DNA of 64,000 nt from Luteolibacter luteus (lineage in GTDB: Bacteria > Verrucomicrobiota > Verrucomicrobiia > Verrucomicrobiales > Akkermansiaceae), in contig NZ_CP051774.1 of the NCBI RefSeq assembly GCF_012913485.1, positions 930,001-994,000 on the forward strand, given 5' to 3'. The translations under genes and the position numbers were made by a program. The notes under the pieces were generated by a model that made no database searches, was not told the DNA's origin, and was given only the letters and a program-made list of their open reading frames with translations. Of the stretch, positions 3,997-33,430 are shown piece after piece (within the stretch, counting starts at the first letter, position 1; each line of letters opens with the position of its first letter).

Positions 3997-5034
3997 TCAA
4001 TTGGTGAGGATATTCAGCTCATTCGCCGAGCGTGTGGCTGGCCTGTCCGTGACGACGATGGTCGCGCCGGGAGAGAGCAAGTCATCCACCTTCTGCGCGA
4101 ACTCGGGAGAGAAGCTCACCTTGGACGCGAGCTCATGGGGCGAGCCGCTGCCGCCACTGACACTCATCCATCTCCGGGCAGCCCTGCCCGGGGCAAAGGG
4201 GCTGCTGCCACCGCTCACGCCGTCGAGCAAGGTGAAAACATGGTCTCCCAGACGGCCCTTCACTTGCACCGAAGCCCGGCCGATGGGCTGGCCGTTACGA
4301 TAAACATAGATCGATTGATCCGCGGAGCTGACCATGATGGTGATCGGACCCTTGGTGCTGCGTTTGGGATTCCAGTCGTATTCACCCTTGGCCAGCGGCT
4401 TGAGCATCCCGGAGTTGAAGTCCTTCGGCGCAAGCATCAGGCCGGGATTCGCCGCGAAGTGCGGTTGATTCTTGCTATTGCCGATCACCACCGTGGCTCC
4501 CCGTGCGGTGATCGAGTAAAGCAGCGTGGAGAAATCATAGGGCATGCGGATGCAGCCATGGCTGGCAGCATAGCCCGGGAGATTGCCGGAGTGCATCGCG
4601 ATGCCCTGCCAAGTCAGGCGCTGCATGTTTGGCATCGGCGCGTCGTCGTAGGTGCTGGAGTAATGGGTCTGCTTTTTCTCCAGAATCGTGAAAACACCGG
4701 AGGGCGTCTCGTGGCCCTTCGATCCGGTGCTGACTGAGGAGCGACCGATCAAGATGCCATTCCGGTAAACGCTGATCGTTTGCAGCGGCAGGCTCACGAG
4801 AACCACCACCGGCCCCGCGGGAGACATCTGCGGATTCCACCAGTACTCGCCCGGCTTGAGCGGACCGGTCGGCTTGCCCGTGGGCGAGCCCTTGGTATGG
4901 AAGGACGGCTGCGCCATCGCGCTGGTCTGGGTGGCCGTCTGGCTCTTCGTGAGATCCGTTCCGCTTTGCACCGAGCACGAGGAGAGGGCTAGCAGTGAGG
5001 CCAGCGCGAAGGGCTTCAGAATTCGAGTTCTCAT
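3997..5034 (-). CDS. L,D-transpeptidase lipoprotein with a duplicated YkuD-like region
   Basis: Predicted lipoprotein of 345 residues. The start at 5034 has AGGAAG 6 bases upstream and gives a clean signal peptide ending LALSSC with the lipid cysteine at residue 20; the ATG 7 codons earlier has no comparable site. Residues 60-185 form a YkuD catalytic domain with H148 and SHGC at 158-161, which should cross-link peptidoglycan or attach proteins to it. Residues 215-335 repeat the start of that domain (GEYDWNP, then a strand, then VYRNGQPIGRASV, against GEYWWNP and VYRNGILIGRSSV) but have no HxxxxxxxxxxSHGC motif, so the second copy cannot be catalytic. It may bind substrate. The gene stands alone and faces the upstream genes. 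Confidence 0.88.
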   Translation of the reverse strand: MRTRILKPFALASLLALSSCSVQSGTDLTKSQTATQTSAMAQPSFHTKGSPTGKPTGPLKPGEYWWNPQMSPAGPVVVLVSLPLQTISVYRNGILIGRSSVSTGSKGHETPSGVFTILEKKQTHYSSTYDDAPMPNMQRLTWQGIAMHSGNLPGYAASHGCIRMPYDFSTLLYSITARGATVVIGNSKNQPHFAANPGLMLAPKDFNSGMLKPLAKGEYDWNPKRSTKGPITIMVSSADQSIYVYRNGQPIGRASVQVKGRLGDHVFTLLDGVSGGSSPFAPGRAARRWMSVSGGSGSPHELASKVSFSPEFAQKVDDLLSPGATIVVTDRPATRSANELNILTN

Positions 5035-23965: not shown

Positions 23966-26900
23966 TCACTTGGTTCGCACCACGACGAGTGACTGGCCCG
24001 CTCGCACGCTCGCGCCTTCCGCGACCAGCACTTCCACCACCTCCAAATGATCGTCGGCATCGAGTGGCACTTCCATCTTCATCGCCTCCAGAATCATCGC
24101 CGTGGCGGAAGCGTGAAGCAGATCGCCTGCCTGGACGTGGATCTTCCAGACGCTACCGGTCACCGGGCTATCCAAGGTCACACACCCATCCGGAATGGTG
24201 AATTCACTCTCCCCCGCTACCTCTTCCGCAGGAGAATCCATTGAGAGCCCTGCCTCCTCCCAGCGCTTCCGCTCAGCCTCGAAGGCCTCTCGCTGCACGC
24301 TGCGGAACCCCTCGATCTCCCCGGCATGCTCTTCGAGGAAGGCCTCGTAGTCCGCAAACCGGAACACGGTCTCCTCGATCTCCAGCTTGTGCCGGCCACG
24401 CGGCACCTCCTCACGGAGGCGCAGGAGTTCCTCCGCACTCACGGGATAAAAGCGGAGCTGATCGAAGAAGCGCAGCAGCCACGGATTCTGGAAATCCTCT
24501 GTTCTGCGCCAACGGTTCCACACCGGGATCGTACGGCCTGTGAATTGATAGCCGCCAGGCCCTTCCATGCCGTAGATGCAGAGATAAGCCCCGCCGATTC
24601 CCACGGCATTCTCCGGCGTCCAGGTCCGCGCGGGATTGTATTTCGTGGTCACCAGGCGATGCCTTGGATCCAGAGGCGTGGCCACGGGAGCGCCGAGATA
24701 CACATCACCCAATCCCATCACCAGATAGGAGGCATCGAAGAAAATGCGATACACCTCGTCGATGGAATCGAGGCCGTTGATGCGGCGGATGAATTCCAGG
24801 TTGCTCGGGCACCACGGGGCATCCGGCCGCACGCTTTGCATGTAGCGTTGGATCGCCTCCCGCGTGCTCGGGTCATCCCAGCTCAGCGGCAGGTGAACCA
24901 CGCGCGCGGGGACCTCGATCTGCTCCAAGGGCGGCAGCGACAGAATACCCTCGCGAATCTTGCCCCAAAGGGCTTCACGAGAAACCTTGCCGGGATCGAA
25001 ATGCACCTGCAATGAACGGATACCCGGAGTGAGATCGATGATCCCACCGATCCCCTGCTCCTTCAGCCATTCATAAACCACGTGCACCTTGAAGCGCAGC
25101 TTCAGATCGAGATGGTGGGGTCCGAACTCGATCAGGAAATAACGATCTCCCGCCCTGCGCACGACCACTGCATCATCGCCCTCGCCGAAGGAATCAATGA
25201 AGCACGAGCCCTTCGCCATCGGAGAAGGATCGCCGAGTGTCTGCAGGCCACCTTCCAGGAAAGAGTGCACCTCCACCGCACGGCTCGCGGCCCAAGCCTC
25301 ATCGACGGGGATGAAGCGCACCTTGTCTCCCGGCCGGAGTTGTCCGAGCTTCCATAACTCCGCATCGATCACCACGACCGGACAAACGAAGCCGCCAAGG
25401 CTAGGTCCATCCGGCCCGAGAATCACGGGCATATCGCCGGTGAAATCCACCGCGCCGATCGCATAGGCATTGTCGTGGAGATTGGAGGGGTGCAAGCCAG
25501 CCTCGCCACCATCCTTCCGCGCCCATTTTGGCTTCGGACCGATCAAGCGGACACCCGTGCGGGCCGAATTGTAATGAACCTCCCAAGCCGTGGCGAAAAA
25601 GGTGTCGATATCCTCATCAAGGAAGAAATCGGGCGAACCATGCGGACCGTAGAGCACTGCGATGTTCCACTCCGAGCTCACGGGGATGCGCGGAGCCTCG
25701 GACAAGCCAACGCCTTGCTTCGTTAGGCCGATACCAAGAACATCTCCCGGAAGGAGAGCGCGCCCGAAAGGACCGCCGAACTTCCCGAGCGTGAAAGTCG
25801 AAGCGCTTCCCAGATAGTCCGGAGACTCCAGTCCACCCGTCACCGCGAGGTAGCAGCGCATACCCGGGCCTTCGATCCGGCCGATCTTCACGCTATCTCC
25901 CGCTTCGATCTTGATCGCCACATTCGTTGGGATGCTCTCGCCATTCTTAAGAACTAGCACCTGCGCTCCTGTGATCGCGATCGTGGTGGCAGCATTGAAG
26001 CGAAGCGTCGGGCCGCTCATCGTGATCTCAAGGCCTGGCATTCCCTCATCATTCCCCACCATCCGATTGGCGAGACGGAAGGAAAGCGAATCAAAGGGAC
26101 CGCAAGGCGGAACCCCTACTTCCCAAAGCCCGGTGCGTCCCGGCCAATCCTGAACGCTCGTCATGGTTCCCGCCGAAAGCACGTCGATGGTAACCGGTCG
26201 GTAATCGAAGCGGGCCATATCACGCATCGCCACCCCACCAGCCCGGAAAGCCTCCCATCGGGTCACTTGGCGCAGATAACGGAGATTCGTCTCAATCCCG
26301 TAAATCCGGGTTTCATCCAGCGCCTTACCTAACAAGGCAACAGCTTCCTCCCGTGACTTCCCATGAACCATCACCTTGCTGAGCAAGGGATCATAGAACG
26401 GGCTCACCTCGGTGCCCGCCGCGATCCAGCCGTCGCAGCGTGTCCACTCCGGAAAGGAAGCTTCCGTCAGAAGCCCGGAACTCGGACGGAAGTTGTGATT
26501 CGGATCTTCCGCATAGACCCGGGCCTGGATGGCATGCCCTTTCGGAGCGGGAGCAACTGCTGGCACCTGCCAATCCGGATCGAGCGCGAGCCGGATCATC
26601 CATTCCACCAGATCGATTCCAGTGACCAGCTCGGTGACGCCATGCTCCACCTGCAGGCGCGTGTTTACTTCCAAGAAGAAGAAGTCCTGGCGATCCGCAT
26701 CATAGATGAACTCCACCGTCCCCGCGGACCGGTAGTTCACGCTCTCGCCCAGCTTCACCGCCGCAGCGTGAAGTTCGGCGCGAACCTTCTCCGAAAGCTC
26801 CGGCGCTGGCGTTTCCTCAAAAACCTTCTGGTTCCGCCTCTGTACCGAACAGTCTCGCTCACCCAAGGCAAGCACCTGCCCTTTTCCATCGCCGAAGATC

Positions 26901-27532
26901 TGCACCTCCACGTGGCGGCCTCGCTCGATGAAGCGCTCAATGAAAACACCGCCGGAACCAAAGCTCCGTTCGCTCAAGCGCACCACGCTCTCGTATTCCC
27001 TCGCTAGCTCCTCCGCATCGCGGCACACCTTCATGCCAATCCCGCCACCACCCGCGGTGCTCTTCAGCATCACCGGATAGCCGATGTCCTCCGCGGCCTT
27101 CACCGCAGCTTCCGCGCTCTCTAGCAGATCCGTCCCGGGTACCAGCGGCACGCCCGCCGCTCCAGCCAGCCGGCGCGCCTCGTGCTTCAAGCCGAAAGCA
27201 ATGATCTGTTCCGGTGTCGGACCCAGCCACTTCGCGCCCGCATTCTCACACATTCGCGCGAAATCCGTATTCTCACTGAGTAGCCCGTAGCCTGGAAAGA
27301 CCGCCGCGGCTCCCGCGTTCTTGATCAAATCAACCAGCGATTCCTTGAGCAGGTAGCTCTCGGACACCGGCCCGGGCCCGAGGCGATGGGCCTCGTCCGC
27401 CAAATCAACGTGCGGTGCCCCGGAATCAGGATCGGAGTAAACGGCAATCGCACGAAGTCCTAGTTCATGCACGGTGCGGATCGCGCGCGCCGCGATTTCG
27501 CCGCGGTTCGCGATTAGGATGGAGCCTTTCAT
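23966..27532 (-). CDS. uca: Biotin-dependent urea/guanidine carboxylase
   Basis: The 1188-residue protein contains, in order, a biotin carboxylase domain at 1-445 ([38 protein letters not shown]), KipA- and KipI-like carboxyltransferase domains at about 465-1010, and a C-terminal biotinyl domain with EAMKME. This is the standard urea carboxylase architecture. Members linked to the two associated proteins found here are now understood to prefer guanidine, giving carboxyguanidine; that assignment rests on context because the deciding active-site residues cannot be checked here. It acts in the cytoplasm on an ATP- and bicarbonate-dependent route to allophanate. It sits 22 bases downstream of the preceding gene. 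Confidence 0.93.
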
Positions 27533-27554: not shown

Positions 27555-28187
27555 CTAGTCCCAGATCAGCACTTCCACCGGGGTGGGATTCCAGCCGTTG
27601 CAGGGGTTGTTGAGTTGCGGGCAATTCGAGATCAGGCACACCACGTCCATCGCCGCAACCATCTCGACATAACGGCCCGGTGCGGAGATCCCATCGGCAA
27701 AAGTCAGCCCACCCTCAGGACTGACCGGCACGTTCATGAAGAAATTGATATTGCAGGCGATGTCCCGCTTCGTGAGCTCCACTTTCCACTCCTGCGCCCC
27801 TCGGATGAAGGAGTCACGGCAGGCATGCATGCACTCCTTGTCATGGGCGTAGCGCATCGTGTTGCTCTCACGCGAACAAGCCCCGCCCAGCGTGTCGTGG
27901 CGACCGCAGGTATCCGCCGTGATTTCGAGCAGGACATTGCCTTCAGTGCTCATCAGCTTCGTACCGGTGCTGAGGTAGAGCGCCTGTTGGGCCTGGATCG
28001 TACCGTCGGCCGAATAGCGATCGGTCGGATCCGCAGCGTTGTAGAAAAGCGTGTCCGCCGCCTGATTTCCCTCCAGATCGTGGATGCGGAAGGTCTGGCC
28101 GCGCTTGATCTCATGCACCCACCAGTCCCCGGCCGGGATGACGTGGCGATGGGTCGCATCTGCCGGATTCATTGTGCTCTCGGTCAT
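27555..28187 (-). CDS. Urea-carboxylase-associated protein (carboxyguanidine deiminase subunit family)
   Basis: The ATG at 28187 starts 5 bases after the previous stop and gives about 210 residues. It belongs to the DUF1989 family ([36 protein letters not shown]). Characteristic Cys/His segments are [12 protein letters not shown], and [17 protein letters not shown] follows later. Paired proteins of this family beside urea carboxylase (UAAP1/UAAP2) have been described as carboxyguanidine deiminase subunits (CgdA/CgdB), which turn carboxyguanidine into allophanate. Which subunit this is cannot be told with confidence here. Confidence 0.88.
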
Positions 28188-28192
28188 GGCGG

Positions 28193-28909
28193 TTAGAAGC
28201 GCAGGGAGTGATAGGTTTCGTTGTTTTCCCAAGCCCGGACGTTCTCCGGACGGATGGCGAACGAGGGGTCATCGGTAGCCGGGTTGTCTCCTTGGAGGAC
28301 TTCCAGCTTCACAGGATGCGGATGATATACGGGATCCGGATCAAAGGGATGCTGGCAGGTATTGAGCACCACCAGCGTGTCGACCTCGAAGCGCAGCTCC
28401 ACGATGTCGCCCGCCTTGGAGTTCCCTGAAACGAAGGACAGCTTCCCCGCTTCATCCGCCACCACCTTGCTGAACCAGTTCAAATTCGGCACCAGATCCT
28501 TCTTCCCGAGACCCCACTTCGCCAATTCGATCAGGAAGCAGTCCCGCCCGTTGCGATACCACTCGTTGCGGGCTTCTTGGTAGTTGTGCTCGCCATACTT
28601 TGCCAGCACCCGCGCCGCATCGGAATGCCCGCACACCGTATCATGCCAGCCGCAATCATCGCGGACGATCGAGGCGAGCAGCCGCCCCATGTCCGAATGC
28701 AGGCAATAGGGGGCGCGCAGGTAGAAGATATGCTGTCCCTTCAGGGTGTCCGGCATGTTGTAGCGTTCATGGCGCTCCAGCGCATTGTAGAGGAGCATCC
28801 CCACGTTCGCCCCACCTTCGAGATCGGTCAGACGGAGACGCTTGCCGCGGGAAATGATGCCGGACCACATGCCGGCGCCGCTGAGGGTTCGTTCAAGGAT
28901 CGGCTTCAT
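28193..28909 (-). CDS. Urea-carboxylase-associated protein, second subunit
   Basis: The 238-residue DUF1989 protein is a paralogue of the next gene: [25 protein letters not shown] aligns with its counterpart, and [13 protein letters not shown] replaces the CGRHDTLGG segment. The conserved Cys/His residues suggest a shared metal site. It probably forms a heteromer with its neighbour as carboxyguanidine deiminase. It is 1 base downstream of the regulator gene stop, so all five genes from the regulator to the hydrolase look like one operon. Confidence 0.88.
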
Positions 28910-28910
28910 A

Positions 28911-29375
28911 TCATCGGTTCATGCCATTGGCCTTCGCATGCAGCGGCGGCATCAGGTGCGGAGTCAGTGTAAGGTTGGCCGTCTTCACCCCCTTGCAGGT
29001 CACCAGCTTGTTGGCGATCTCACGCAGCGTGCGCGCCGGACCCTGCATCAGGATCACCTCCAGCACGTGCTCGTCTTCCAGAAGGACATGCTGGGAAGAA
29101 ATCACCTCCGCCACATGCTCGCGAAAGATTCGGGATAGATCCCGCAGCAGTGCGCTCTTCGACTCGTCGTAGACCAGCGTCAGGGTCCCCGCCATGATCT
29201 CCGTGCCGATCTTTCCCAAATGCTGTGCCGCGTGCTGATGAATCATTTCCGCCACGGCTTGGGAGCGACTATCAAAGCCACGCGCGGACACCAGCCGCTC
29301 GAAGGCTTGAAAGGTCTCCTCAGGCATCGAGACGGTGATCCGTCTCAAGCCATCGGCAGAAGGGTCGTTGGACAT
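28911..29375 (-). CDS. NikR-like ribbon-helix-helix regulator with altered metal site
   Basis: The 154-residue protein has a CopG/NikR ribbon-helix-helix ([35 protein letters not shown]) and an ACT-like C-terminal domain. From YDESK onward it aligns without gaps to E. coli NikR (sequence recalled from memory). Of the nickel ligands there, the H87 position is kept as His, while H89 is Leu, C95 is Val and H76 is Arg. It should therefore not bind nickel in the usual square-planar way. It heads the carboxylase operon, and a NikR-type operator lies 30 bases upstream. It probably controls guanidine/urea use in response to another signal. Confidence 0.85.
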
Positions 29376-29404
29376 GCCCCTCCGGGAAGCAGCCGCAATG
29401 CCTG

Positions 29405-29432
29405 ATATGAAGTTTTTTTCATTTCTTCATAC
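29405..29432. promoter_or_regulatory. NikR-type operator upstream of the regulator/carboxylase operon
   Basis: ATATGA-N16-TCATAC matches the E. coli NikR operator GTATGA-N16-TCATAC at 11 of 12 positions with exactly the right spacing. It is centred about 43 bases upstream of the NikR-like start, suggesting autoregulation. Confidence 0.75.
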
Positions 29433-29449
29433 CGAATGACCTGATACCC

Positions 29450-29839
29450 TCACCCCGTGTAGCGCGCATGCCGGGGCAGCGTGTCCGCCACCTCGAACCA
29501 CGAAAGCCGGTCCTCCACCCAGGTATGATCATGCGGGGGCATCAGCCCCGGATCGTCCAAGCTGCAAGTGGTCACTTCATACTCCGAGGGAAAGGACGGA
29601 TCGAAGAAGCTCAAGGGCGAACCGCACTCCGGGCAGAAGGTTCGCTCCCTACCCGCAAACTTCAGAAGCTTCGGCTCGCCATGGCTCCAGCGCAGCGTCC
29701 CTGCCGGGAAAAAGGTCCACGCGACCACCGGCGCACCGCTCGCTTTCCGGCAGTCCTCGCAATGACAATAGGACGTGAAGCGCGGTTCCGCCCCGATCTC
29801 GTAGCGCGTGGCTCCGCAAAGGCATCCTCCCTTGATCAT
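29450..29839 (-). CDS. GFA (CENP-V/GFA) family zinc protein
   Basis: The 129-residue protein has the family's metal-binding cysteines: CLCGATRYEI at residues 6-15, YCHCEDCRKASGAP at about 29-42 and FCPECGSPL near 80. The family is named after a glutathione-dependent formaldehyde-activating enzyme, but most members have no proven activity. It lies between the transporter operon and the regulator on the same strand, 47 bases after the ATPase stop, and may be read through from the transporter genes. A link to guanidine use is unproven. Confidence 0.85.
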   Translation of the reverse strand: MIKGGCLCGATRYEIGAEPRFTSYCHCEDCRKASGAPVVAWTFFPAGTLRWSHGEPKLLKFAGRERTFCPECGSPLSFFDPSFPSEYEVTTCSLDDPGLMPPHDHTWVEDRLSWFEVADTLPRHARYTG

Positions 29840-29886
29840 GCATGAAACCTAGCGGCGAAGCCCTCGCGGGCAAGTAGCTGTAATTA

Positions 29887-30780
29887 TCAGATCACATCCG
29901 GGTCCGAAACCGCGAGCCGCATCACCGGCGTATCCTTCTGTTCCTGTCCGGGCGGATGCATCATGTGGTCGATGTGCTTGCGGGTGGCGACAAAGGTGGG
30001 CTCGAAGATCTGCGCCTCCGAACGAGGGCGCGGCACCGGCACTTCCACCACCTCCCGCACCCTGCCGGGATTCGCATCCAGCACCAGAATGCGATCGGAA
30101 AGGAAAACCGCCTCGTCCAGATCATGGGTGATGAAGACAATCGTGATGTCCACGTTCTTCCAGATCTCCAACAGATAAGACTGCATCTTGCAGCGGGTCT
30201 GCGCGTCGAGCGCGCCGAAGGGCTCGTCCATGAAGAGCACGCGCGGTTGATTCGCCAACGCCCGGGCAATCGCCACGCGCTGCTTCATCCCGCCGGACAA
30301 CTGGTGGGGATAGGCATTCTCGAATTTCGAAAGTCCCACGAGATCGATCCACTCGCGCGCCTCCCGCTCCGCGATAAAACCGGACTTCCCGGCCATCCTC
30401 GGCCCGAACATCACGTTCTCCTTCACCGACATCCACGGGAAGAGCGTGTAGCCTTGAAACACCATCCCACGATCCGGCCCGGGGCCCGAGACCGCTTCAT
30501 CATACACGCGGACCTCACCGGAGCTCGGCGTTTCCAGACCCGCGAGGATTCGCACCAGCGTCGATTTCCCGCAACCGGAAGGCCCGATCACGCACATCAG
30601 CTCGCGCTTGTGGACAGAGAAGGAAACATTATCCAGCGCGGTCACCGTGCCACGCGGCGTCTCAAAGCGCTTGGTCAATCCTCGCACCTCCAGCGCGACC
30701 GGCCGCTGCTGCAGGCGGGAGAAGCGCGCGGCAACATCCGGAGACTGGACCCGATAGTCGGGAAGCGTAACGATGCTCAT
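29887..30780 (-). CDS. ABC transporter ATP-binding protein of the guanidine/urea locus
   Basis: The ATG at 30780 overlaps the permease stop by 4 bases (ATGA). A longer in-frame extension upstream runs into permease sequence and is not real. The 297-residue protein has Walker A GPSGCGKST, signature LSGGMKQRVAIARAL, Walker B VLFMDEPFGALD and the H-loop VFITHDLDEAV, in the style of the SsuB/TauB nitrate-sulfonate-taurine subfamily. It energises import of the substrate bound by the co-encoded binding protein, probably guanidine or urea. Confidence 0.93.
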   Translation of the reverse strand: MSIVTLPDYRVQSPDVAARFSRLQQRPVALEVRGLTKRFETPRGTVTALDNVSFSVHKRELMCVIGPSGCGKSTLVRILAGLETPSSGEVRVYDEAVSGPGPDRGMVFQGYTLFPWMSVKENVMFGPRMAGKSGFIAEREAREWIDLVGLSKFENAYPHQLSGGMKQRVAIARALANQPRVLFMDEPFGALDAQTRCKMQSYLLEIWKNVDITIVFITHDLDEAVFLSDRILVLDANPGRVREVVEVPVPRPRSEAQIFEPTFVATRKHIDHMMHPPGQEQKDTPVMRLAVSDPDVI

Positions 30781-32180
30781 GGCGTTTGATTGCGGGTAGC
30801 GGCGAGGCGCGAGGATTCCATCAATGCTGCGCGCTGGCGCAGCCCTGCACCGATTCTCCGGAAGGGCCAGGTGAAGACCTTTGCGATGCCGCGCGAAAGG
30901 GCATTCGACTTGCCGGCCCACGGGAAAAGCAGGCCATGCAGCCAGGATAGAAACTGATCGGTCACGAAGCCCGTCACCCCGATCAGGATAATCACCGGAA
31001 AGACCCGATCGAAGTTGCGGAAGCGGCCCTGCGTCTCGATGAACTCCGTGAGCCCGCTTTTGATCCCGATCAACTCGGCGATGACGAGCCAGGTCCAAGC
31101 CCAGCCCAGAAGGATGCGCAGGTCATTGTAGAGATTGGGCAAGATACCCGGGATCACCACATTGGTCAGCATTTGCCGCGGCTTCGCACCCAGCGTCTGT
31201 GCTGCCTCCAGCAACGCAGGGTCCAAGAGGCGCGTGGTCTTGGAAACCACCAGCACCATCTGGAAAACCGTACCGATGAAGACCAGTGCGATCTTCGGCG
31301 CGTCCCCTGCCAGCAGCACCGCCACCAGCAGCGTGCTGAAGGTCGGAGCAGGCATGTAACGGAAGAAATCCACGAAAGGCTCGAAGAGCTTCGAGAAGAA
31401 ATCGAAGACCCCGCAGAGAATCCCCAGAGGAATACCGATCAGACAGGACCACAGGAAGCCCATCAGGATGATGCGCAGGGATGCCTTGTAGCGCTGCATC
31501 ATCGTCAGCTCGCCCTCGGGCGCATCCGAGCTGAAATCTCGCATCCCCGTGCGCAGCACCTCATGCGGGGCAGGCAAGTAGACCGGGTTCGCAGGCTTGC
31601 CCTGCGGCAGTAGTTTCAGCAGCGACTCATCCGGCAATTGTTTGAAGACGAAGTCCGGCGACAGCGAAGAAAGCATCGCCCAGTTCTGCTTCACGATCGC
31701 CAGATTCTCTTCTGTTAGAGCAGGCTTGCCCGCCACCTTCGCGCCGGTAGCGAGATCCCTCCACACATGGTAGAGCACCACATCGTTTTGGGTATCACCG
31801 AAGGGTAGCCAGCCCTCCTCGATCGCCAGCGGCGCGAGCTGCCGCAGCAGCTTCTGGTTCTTCCGCTTCGCGCCGGTGACCGGCGTGCCTGCCTCCTTGG
31901 CAGCCATCACCGCGGCATTCTCCTCCTTCACCGCATCGACGAACTCCGGAAAGAAGCCTTTGCTCACATGATCGCCTGCCGTGAAAACCGTGGTCACCCC
32001 CTCGCGCTCCGCGGAGAGTTCGATCTTCACATCCGGATGCCAGATCCACGGCACATAGGAGACCACGCACCACGATACCAGCGGCAAGAGGAAGGAGACG
32101 ATACTCAGCGCAAAGCGACGACCCTGCGGCAGATCGCGGCGGATCACGAACCAGTCTTTCAGGAAGCCGGGGCGCGCCAT
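30777..32180 (-). CDS. ABC transporter permease with a long extracytoplasmic insert
   Basis: The 467-residue permease has one N-terminal membrane segment at about 22-45, a soluble stretch of roughly 180 residues, then the SsuC-type BPD_transp_1 domain at about 235-430. The EAA loop appears as LLEAAQTLGAKPRQMLTNVVIPGILPNLYNDL. The long loop after helix 1 (KIELSAEREGVTTVFTAGDH) is not part of the standard fold and could act at the periplasmic face. Permeases of urea carboxylase-linked transporters are of this subfamily. The gene is coupled to the ATPase by a 4-base overlap. Confidence 0.9.
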   Translation of the reverse strand: MARPGFLKDWFVIRRDLPQGRRFALSIVSFLLPLVSWCVVSYVPWIWHPDVKIELSAEREGVTTVFTAGDHVSKGFFPEFVDAVKEENAAVMAAKEAGTPVTGAKRKNQKLLRQLAPLAIEEGWLPFGDTQNDVVLYHVWRDLATGAKVAGKPALTEENLAIVKQNWAMLSSLSPDFVFKQLPDESLLKLLPQGKPANPVYLPAPHEVLRTGMRDFSSDAPEGELTMMQRYKASLRIILMGFLWSCLIGIPLGILCGVFDFFSKLFEPFVDFFRYMPAPTFSTLLVAVLLAGDAPKIALVFIGTVFQMVLVVSKTTRLLDPALLEAAQTLGAKPRQMLTNVVIPGILPNLYNDLRILLGWAWTWLVIAELIGIKSGLTEFIETQGRFRNFDRVFPVIILIGVTGFVTDQFLSWLHGLLFPWAGKSNALSRGIAKVFTWPFRRIGAGLRQRAALMESSRLAATRNQTP

Positions 32181-32205
32181 GAAGTCGATGGGTTTTTAGA
32201 AAGTG

Positions 32206-32237
32206 ATCGCGCCGGGCCGGGACCAGCCCGGCGCGAT
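32206..32237 (-). promoter_or_regulatory. Strong hairpin between binding-protein and permease genes
   Basis: An exact 12-bp GC-rich stem (ATCGCGCCGGGC and its complement, 8-base loop) lies 22 bases after the binding-protein stop and 25 bases before the permease start. There is no T-run, so it more likely protects the upstream mRNA and lowers read-through than fully ending transcription, as seen in many ABC operons. Confidence 0.7.
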
Positions 32238-32259
32238 GATGGCTGCATTCGGATGGAAA

Positions 32260-33237
32260 TTACTTCTTGAGAGCCTTGGTGAGGGAGGGGTCGAGATACT
32301 TCTCCGGATCCTGGCTCTTCTCGTAGACCTTGAACTTCAGATTGAAGGCATTCACGGACTTGGTGGAGCCATAGACGCTCGCAAGCCCCTCGCCCTTCTC
32401 CCAGCGCTTGAGCGCCTCATCGAGCGTAAGGATATAGGTGCCCTTGAAAAACGGCTCGTATTCTTCCGGGGAGATCTTCACGCGGGCAGAGAGGATCTTC
32501 AGAGCATCGTCCAAATTCTCTTCATCGCGCACGTAGTCGGCGATCTTGTACCAGACCTTCACCACCTTCGCCCAATCCTCCTTGTTCTTCTCGAGGCTCT
32601 CCGCGGAGACGTAGAGGAGATCGTAGATGATTCCGGGCGCATCGGCCGAGGTGAAGACCGGCTTGGAGCCCGGCAAGGCCTTCAGCGCTTGACCGGAGTT
32701 CGGTTGCCAAGCGCTGATTGCAGAGACCGCCTTCGAGGCGAGCACCTGCGGAGTCTCGTTGGTAGGGGTGTTCACCACCGTCACATCGTCCGCCTTCATC
32801 CCGCTCTTCTCGAGTGCGGTGAGAAAGAGCAGATGGGAGACGAATCCTTCCTCCAGACCCACCTTCTTGCCCTTCAGGTCCTTCATCGAAGAGATCCCGG
32901 GAGCCGCCACCACCATGTCGTTGCCGTTGGAGTAGTCGTTGATGAGAATACCCACCGACGGCTTGCCCGTGGCACCCGTGACCAGAGCATCGCCATTGGT
33001 CATGCACACCGCGTCCACCTTGCCGGACACATAGGCATCCATCGAAGGCACGTAGTCGAACCACTGGAACTCCACATCCACCCCCGCCTCTTTGAACCAG
33101 CCTTTTTGAACGCCGATCTCCCAAGCGATCCAGCCCGGCCAATCGGAGTAGGCGATCTTCAGAGGCTCGGCTTGGGCGATCCCGCAGAGAGCGAGCATCC
33201 CGGCAAAGGCGGATCGGAAATATGTCGGCGATTTCAT
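32260..33237 (-). CDS. Periplasmic substrate-binding protein of the guanidine/urea transporter
   Basis: The 325-residue protein has a signal peptide ([17 protein letters not shown], cleavage near residue 23) and an NMT1/TauA-like SsuA fold: [36 protein letters not shown] at the start, then [15 protein letters not shown] and [16 protein letters not shown]. This matches the binding proteins regularly found beside urea carboxylase genes. It starts the transporter operon; a NikR-type operator lies 37 bases upstream of its ATG. Confidence 0.92.
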
Positions 33238-33273
33238 CTTCGGTGTAGAACTGGGGATTGAGGAACACCCGCG

Positions 33274-33301
33274 GTATGAAACTTCCGCCGATTGTTCACA
33301 C
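33274..33301. promoter_or_regulatory. NikR-type operator upstream of the transporter operon
   Basis: GTATGA-N16-TCACAC matches the NikR operator GTATGA-N16-TCATAC at 11 of 12 positions with the exact 16-base spacing. Its presence before a second operon of the same locus strengthens the case that the NikR-like protein controls both. Confidence 0.7.
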
Positions 33302-33430
33302 CGGAATAAGCAACGCCCGTACCAAGGCCGTTTCTCTTCTTCGCTTTCTCCGACATCCCGGGGTTGGAAATCGGAGCGATTTTCACAGAGATTTCCTCAT
33401 CCTCTCACGTTTTCATGCTTTGATCCCCGC

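Follow-up and report, generated by a model that had tools for sequence, protein, structure and literature searches.

A NikR-fold regulator lacking most nickel ligands is linked to guanidine-assimilation genes through conserved candidate operators in Luteolibacter luteus and its relatives

So far, RNA switches supply most of what is known about control of the genes for guanidine uptake and breakdown. Guanidine-I and guanidine-II riboswitches control carboxylase, carboxyguanidine deiminase, and transporter genes, the same kinds of genes as those described here; the switches are RNA, whereas the candidate regulator of this locus is a protein, and the two layers meet in Acinetobacter. MumR of Acinetobacter baumannii offers another likeness, as a protein regulator of a urea-carboxylase operon; the available part of PMC5050338 describes it as a LysR family activator of an NRAMP/urea operon, and it was ruled out as the same regulator because it is LysR-type and belongs to a different operon. 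A further likeness is to NikR of E. coli, P. horikoshii, and H. pylori, a nickel-responsive ribbon-helix-helix repressor with which the regulator shares its fold, domain order, and the geometry of a 28-bp palindrome. The NikR operator consensus is GTATGA-N16-TCATAC (excerpt of PMC7055735), with half-sites reported as GTATGAT in enterobacteria and GTGTTAC in delta-proteobacteria (excerpt of PMC545781). Unlike NikR, the regulator lacks the full set of nickel ligands, and it is linked to guanidine genes rather than nickel genes, with no nickel response expected. On our best reading of these sequences, a NikR-fold regulator appears to have moved from nickel to guanidine metabolism. A sequence-only reading of this DNA had suggested that the regulon was undescribed, and a search of one open-access library (PMC) agrees, since the matches listed include no description of it and no NikR-type, RHH/CopG, or other guanidine-linked regulator.

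The locus lies in a 64,000-nucleotide stretch of the Luteolibacter luteus genome (the window), where its genes form two sets on the minus strand. The transporter operon encodes an ABC transporter substrate-binding protein (32260-33237; best match TIGR03427, below its cut-off), a permease (30777-32180; PF00528), an ATPase (29887-30780; PF00005), and a GFA-family protein (29450-29839; PF04828) that is the last gene before operator 1. The ATPase start given is the ATG common to relatives, from comparison with locus L026, while the listed ORF reaches 31098. The second operon encodes the NikR-fold regulator (28911-29375), UAAP1 (28193-28909; TIGR03425), UAAP2 (27555-28232; TIGR03424), a urea-carboxylase-family enzyme (23966-27532; TIGR02712), and allophanate hydrolase (TIGR02713; 22222-24060 for the ORF as listed, whose true start is probably further in because the listed ORF overlaps the carboxylase). 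Judging from gene order and spacing, each set would form a single transcript.

Several features mark this as a guanidine locus, as the sequence-only reading had labelled it. UAAP1, UAAP2, the carboxylase, and the hydrolase all score above their family cut-offs, and the binding protein has the sub-threshold best match noted above. The residue aligned with Asn1330 of the K. lactis urea carboxylase, which we take to be the specificity position of the Asp/Asn rule for these enzymes, is Asp in the window carboxylase and in 62/62 readable loci of 68 scanned; among the six unreadable carboxylases, five contigs end in or before the gene and L104 was not matched by the pattern. Asp at the specificity position is the state given for guanidine carboxylases and Asn that for urea carboxylases (excerpt of PMC12186494), and the window enzyme is a predicted guanidine carboxylase. 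Both UAAP1 and UAAP2 belong to DUF1989 (PF09347), which also includes the carboxyguanidine deiminase subunits CgdA/CgdB (PMC11410670, in excerpt), and are probable deiminase subunits themselves. The carboxylase, the DUF1989 pair, and the allophanate hydrolase occur together, as expected of the guanidine carboxylase pathway.

The regulator combines NikR_C and ribbon-helix-helix domains (PF08753 at 77.1 bits and PF01402 at 25 bits, both above cut-off), and its sequence matches solved NikRs. An AlphaFold2 model built from 15 close sequences (mean pLDDT 64.1, pTM 0.47; adequate for the fold, not for the ligand pocket) returned NikR 2bj7 as its best Foldseek match. Five curated NCBIfam NikR models match the regulator, none of them above its cut-off. 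At the positions equivalent to E. coli NikR (EcNikR) residues 76, 87, 89, and 95, where NikR has H-H-H-C, the regulator reads R-H-L-V. The earlier description of a regulator without a nickel site is thus right for three of the four ligands and too strong for His87, the sole ligand left and residue 96 of the window regulator. No other NikR_C protein was found in the genome, and a second, true NikR was accordingly ruled out as owner of the operators described below.

Loss of the ligand set extends across the clade. Phylogenetic analysis compared 59 guanidine-linked regulators with L067, two reference NikRs, and 20 unlinked NikR-like genes sampled from the phylum. A single branch (support 100/98; 100% of 200 bootstrap trees) parts the 59 linked regulators from the 23 others, in a tree that has few columns, where some long branches meet and the unlinked NikRs are a sample. 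The complete H-H-H-C set occurs in 0/59 linked regulators vs 21/21 unlinked NikRs examined from the phylum. Cys95 is absent in 59/59 linked members. At position 91, 56 of them have Glu (Glu100 in the window regulator) and 3 have Asp, vs Asp in 19/21 unlinked proteins. The linked members that branch closest to the canonical NikRs retain several His and carry Tyr or Ser at position 95, which suggests that Cys was the first ligand to be lost.

These counts bear on whether the protein is still a metal sensor, in which case His87 and other residues would bind an ion such as nickel or zinc, and metal would control the guanidine genes. The NikR fold and domain are compatible with such a role, as is the presence of His87 in 47/59 linked members and of three His in some. 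Against it stand the universal loss of Cys95 and the clean division from same-phylum NikRs that keep all four ligands; biotin carboxylases of this kind, moreover, are not known to be nickel enzymes. We consider continued metal sensing quite improbable.

Two candidate operators, both on the minus strand, precede the two operons. Operator 1 (29405-29432; ATATGA-N16-TCATAC) lies before the regulator/carboxylase operon and operator 2 (33274-33301; GTATGA-N16-TCACAC) before the transporter operon; both agree with GTATGA-N16-TCATAC at 11 of 12 positions and at the exact spacing, and they end 29 and 36 bp, respectively, from the start codons. The sites were therefore correctly placed and described at the outset. 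Within the 64-kb window, the canonical pattern with up to three mismatches occurs 8 times vs 8.8 expected by chance, so the weaker matches are uninformative; the only matches with one mismatch are operators 1 and 2. Across the genome, a single contig of 6,412,079 bases, the pattern RTATGA-N16-TCAYAC without mismatch finds only these two operators, and the canonical pattern with at most one mismatch finds three sites vs 1 for a reversed control pattern. The third site (G000:C1:6277917) falls within an ORF and was taken as a chance match.

The operators are kept in relatives, and the conservation check proposed with the original claim was passed. In all 15 orthologous loci found, each from Verrucomicrobiota, the site precedes the regulator; nine of these sites are perfect and the others have at most 2 mismatches. 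Ten genomes, the window's own and nine relatives, were searched whole with the canonical pattern at one mismatch or fewer, and the 26 sites recovered are largely confined to the two operons: 16 immediately precede the regulator or the binding-protein gene, and the other 10 lie elsewhere; all 7/7 perfect sites are in the former group. In eight of the whole-searched relatives, the gene immediately downstream of a near-perfect site is that of the binding protein. One genome, G388, shows only an unrelated match at this threshold, which its regulator site misses by having 2 mismatches.

Across 387 genomes of the phylum, the regulator was matched at 1e-6 in 129 and UAAP1 scored above cut-off in 44; in 37 of these 44, the two genes share a contig and lie within 10 kb of each other. 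A wider set of 59 regulator-bearing loci was assembled, including nine from a plasmid collection (Novosphingobium, Sphingobium, Asticcacaulis, Acinetobacter), the only source of its Proteobacteria. L099 and L124 were left out (same genomes as L034 and L032), L048 and others were omitted from alignment A1 and L035 from A2, and the near-identical loci L036-L038 and L095/L097 were retained and counted. Sites with a 28-bp span precede the regulator in 41/59 loci vs 1.1 expected from shuffles and the binding protein in 34/48 vs 1.5, and 56/59 loci have such an operator in at least one of the two positions. Control windows within carboxylase genes gave 0/506. Three loci (L091, L104, L125) have no site before either gene, and L091 has one before UAAP1 instead. 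On the most distant branch (L116, L123, L126-L128), some sites are weak and equalled in 3-12 of 100 shuffles. A scan for palindromicity alone at a 28-bp span ranked the same sites best in many, not all, loci. Six regulator-less loci could be read upstream of the binding protein, and one of these has a weak match, 361 bp away.

Chance matches could account for two such sites in principle, and the window taken by itself, with no excess at three mismatches, would allow it. Their retention at a fixed distance in every close locus, the wider-set counts far above shuffles, and the covariation of a site base with a regulator residue all argue otherwise, and the near-perfect sites are ruled out as chance products by their uniqueness in the genome, the wider-set shuffles, and the ten-genome counts; we regard a chance origin as extremely improbable.

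Binding specificity appears to have diverged within the family in a way that can be read from both partners. In the clade of the window regulator, the half-site GTATGA is that of E. coli NikR. Outside this clade, many half-sites read GTATTAC, which resembles the delta-proteobacterial NikR signal GTGTTAC. The proposal that the regulator has kept the NikR DNA code accordingly stands for operator geometry and for the window clade, and does not extend to the branches that use GTATTAC. Residue 5 (EcNikR numbering; Thr14 in the window regulator), which in NikR presumably contacts DNA, is Thr or Ser across loci. Thr5 occurs with half-site G5 in 22/22 loci and Ser5 with T5 in 30/31, with six mixed or siteless loci set aside and a site search that favoured neither G nor T. 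The one exception, L123, has its site 288 bp from the gene and a weaker site nearer. On the tree, residue 5 changes four times and the half-site base five times; an independent-pairs test gave agreement in nearly all draws, with two starred pairs (four when all branches are used), too few for significance.

Promoter elements at the operators indicate how regulation might operate. Just upstream of operator 2 on the minus strand lies a sigma54-type -24/-12 element (33309-33324; TGGTACGGGCGTTGCT) that scores 12/12 against the consensus used here. Elements scoring at least 10 by this measure lie beside 42/75 operators vs 1.6 for shuffled sequence and 4.0 for windows drawn at random from the same loci, and a sigma54 gene is present in the genome. 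No consensus sigma70 promoter was found at the two sites, and that candidate was dropped. Operator 1 is abutted by a GG-N10-GC element (29388-29403, minus strand) that is conserved in the clade. A sigma54 start from this element would land at the ATG, and a Shine-Dalgarno-like GGAGGGG intervenes; because the spacing from element to ATG is wrong, a sigma54 promoter for the regulator operon is not relied on.

The arrangement at operator 2 fits a repressor, because a protein bound there would sit over the start region of the sigma54-type promoter. The regulator might instead be an activator, for which the position of operator 1-type sites upstream of the conserved GG-N10-GC element could be cited. 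Activation would be hard to reconcile with an occupied start at operator 2, and NikR itself is a repressor (PMC7055735, as excerpted); we consider an activator unlikely.

We therefore favour repression, and think it probable that the NikR-fold regulator, no longer sensing nickel, is a dedicated repressor of guanidine assimilation that responds to guanidine or to one of its breakdown intermediates by leaving the DNA. We infer that the protein, presumably a tetramer, binds DNA at both operators and represses the regulator/carboxylase and transporter operons until guanidine or such an intermediate frees it from DNA. For the transporter genes, a nitrogen-regulated (sigma54-type) promoter would be gated by a guanidine-linked repressor bound at operator 2, across the promoter start; the layout suggests general nitrogen control held in check by a substrate-specific protein.

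Riboswitch searches inform what the inducer might be. No guanidine riboswitch reaches Rfam gathering scores in the window, and such a switch was set aside as its control element. Scored with stricter filters, guanidine-I riboswitches occur in 0/44 UAAP1-bearing Verrucomicrobiota genomes and guanidine-II in 5/44, each time away from the cluster. All-Rfam scans of the window and 21 loci, the sole cover of other classes, gave only two guanidine matches, both in Acinetobacter. In the A. baumannii record L082, a 14/14 operator (4437-4464) is followed by a guanidine-I riboswitch (4499-4594) and then UAAP1, and a second Acinetobacter record has a 13/14 operator (L131:2260-2287), then a riboswitch (2113-2224), then UAAP1. 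These pairs tie the operator to guanidine without relying on enzyme names. The regulator/allophanate-hydrolase genes and the permease gene of L082 have an operator and no riboswitch.

The same pairs leave room for a regulator that senses another nitrogen signal or pathway compound, such as allophanate, urea, or methylguanidine, rather than guanidine itself. Since the riboswitch already senses guanidine at one operon, the Acinetobacter regulator may sense something else, and a second sensor there could serve for a compound other than guanidine; in some relatives, moreover, the regulator adjoins genes for a creatininase and a Rieske oxygenase. Telling against this, the L082 operons without a riboswitch carry the same operators, and in Verrucomicrobiota, where guanidine-I riboswitches are absent from the genomes scored, guanidine would need another reporter. 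We hold sensing of a different compound to be possible, though somewhat doubtful.

The family is a concrete protein candidate for guanidine sensing with defined operators, and it is this testable candidate that gives the regulator its high interest. A more ambitious version is offered tentatively, as we judge it slightly more doubtful than probable: this would be the first guanidine-responsive transcription factor family, in which the former nickel pocket (conserved Glu91, no Cys95) binds guanidinium. The family would span Verrucomicrobiota, Alphaproteobacteria, and Acinetobacter, would replace or double the guanidine riboswitch, and would rely on a single Thr/Ser residue to switch its DNA code from GTATGA to GTATTAC or back. 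The family also appears to show a metal sensor that lost its metal site and was recruited to an organic-nitrogen pathway, with a readable change of DNA code, and a guanidine-responsive repressor, if real, would be a useful biosensor part.

Gene content and operator layout vary further among the loci. Seven UAAP1-bearing loci have no regulator (L113, L115, L119, L121, L122, L130, L090), and their genomes contain no guanidine-I or guanidine-II riboswitch either. Matches to RF02514 (5' ureB sRNA) lie near the cluster at L100:4601-4890 and L088:155-453. At L036:4770-5627, the transporter-side operator precedes a 285-aa ORF and then the binding-protein gene; the ORF has the look of an outer-membrane barrel by eye and no Pfam match. 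Two operators about 300 bp apart separate the binding-protein gene from a divergent gene at L084:4845-5207 and likewise in L085, L086, and L087; this gene, which L084 and L085 annotate as a TonB-dependent receptor, is a possible member of the regulon.

The permease side of L071, a locus related to L082, encodes an SMR exporter, a 2OG-Fe(II) oxygenase, and a hypothetical protein, which resemble the guanidine export genes and the mgdH/mgdL pair described in the available portion of PMC12508155. A GFA-family (formaldehyde-activating) gene lies close to the cluster in many relatives as well as in the window, and methylguanidine breakdown releases formaldehyde according to the same excerpt (PMC12508155). 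The transporter-to-regulator interval of L026 (1159-6705) contains glutamine-synthetase-like and FGE-sulfatase-like genes together with a creatininase, a GFA gene, and a Rieske oxygenase; these may form an upstream route that starts from a larger guanidino compound.
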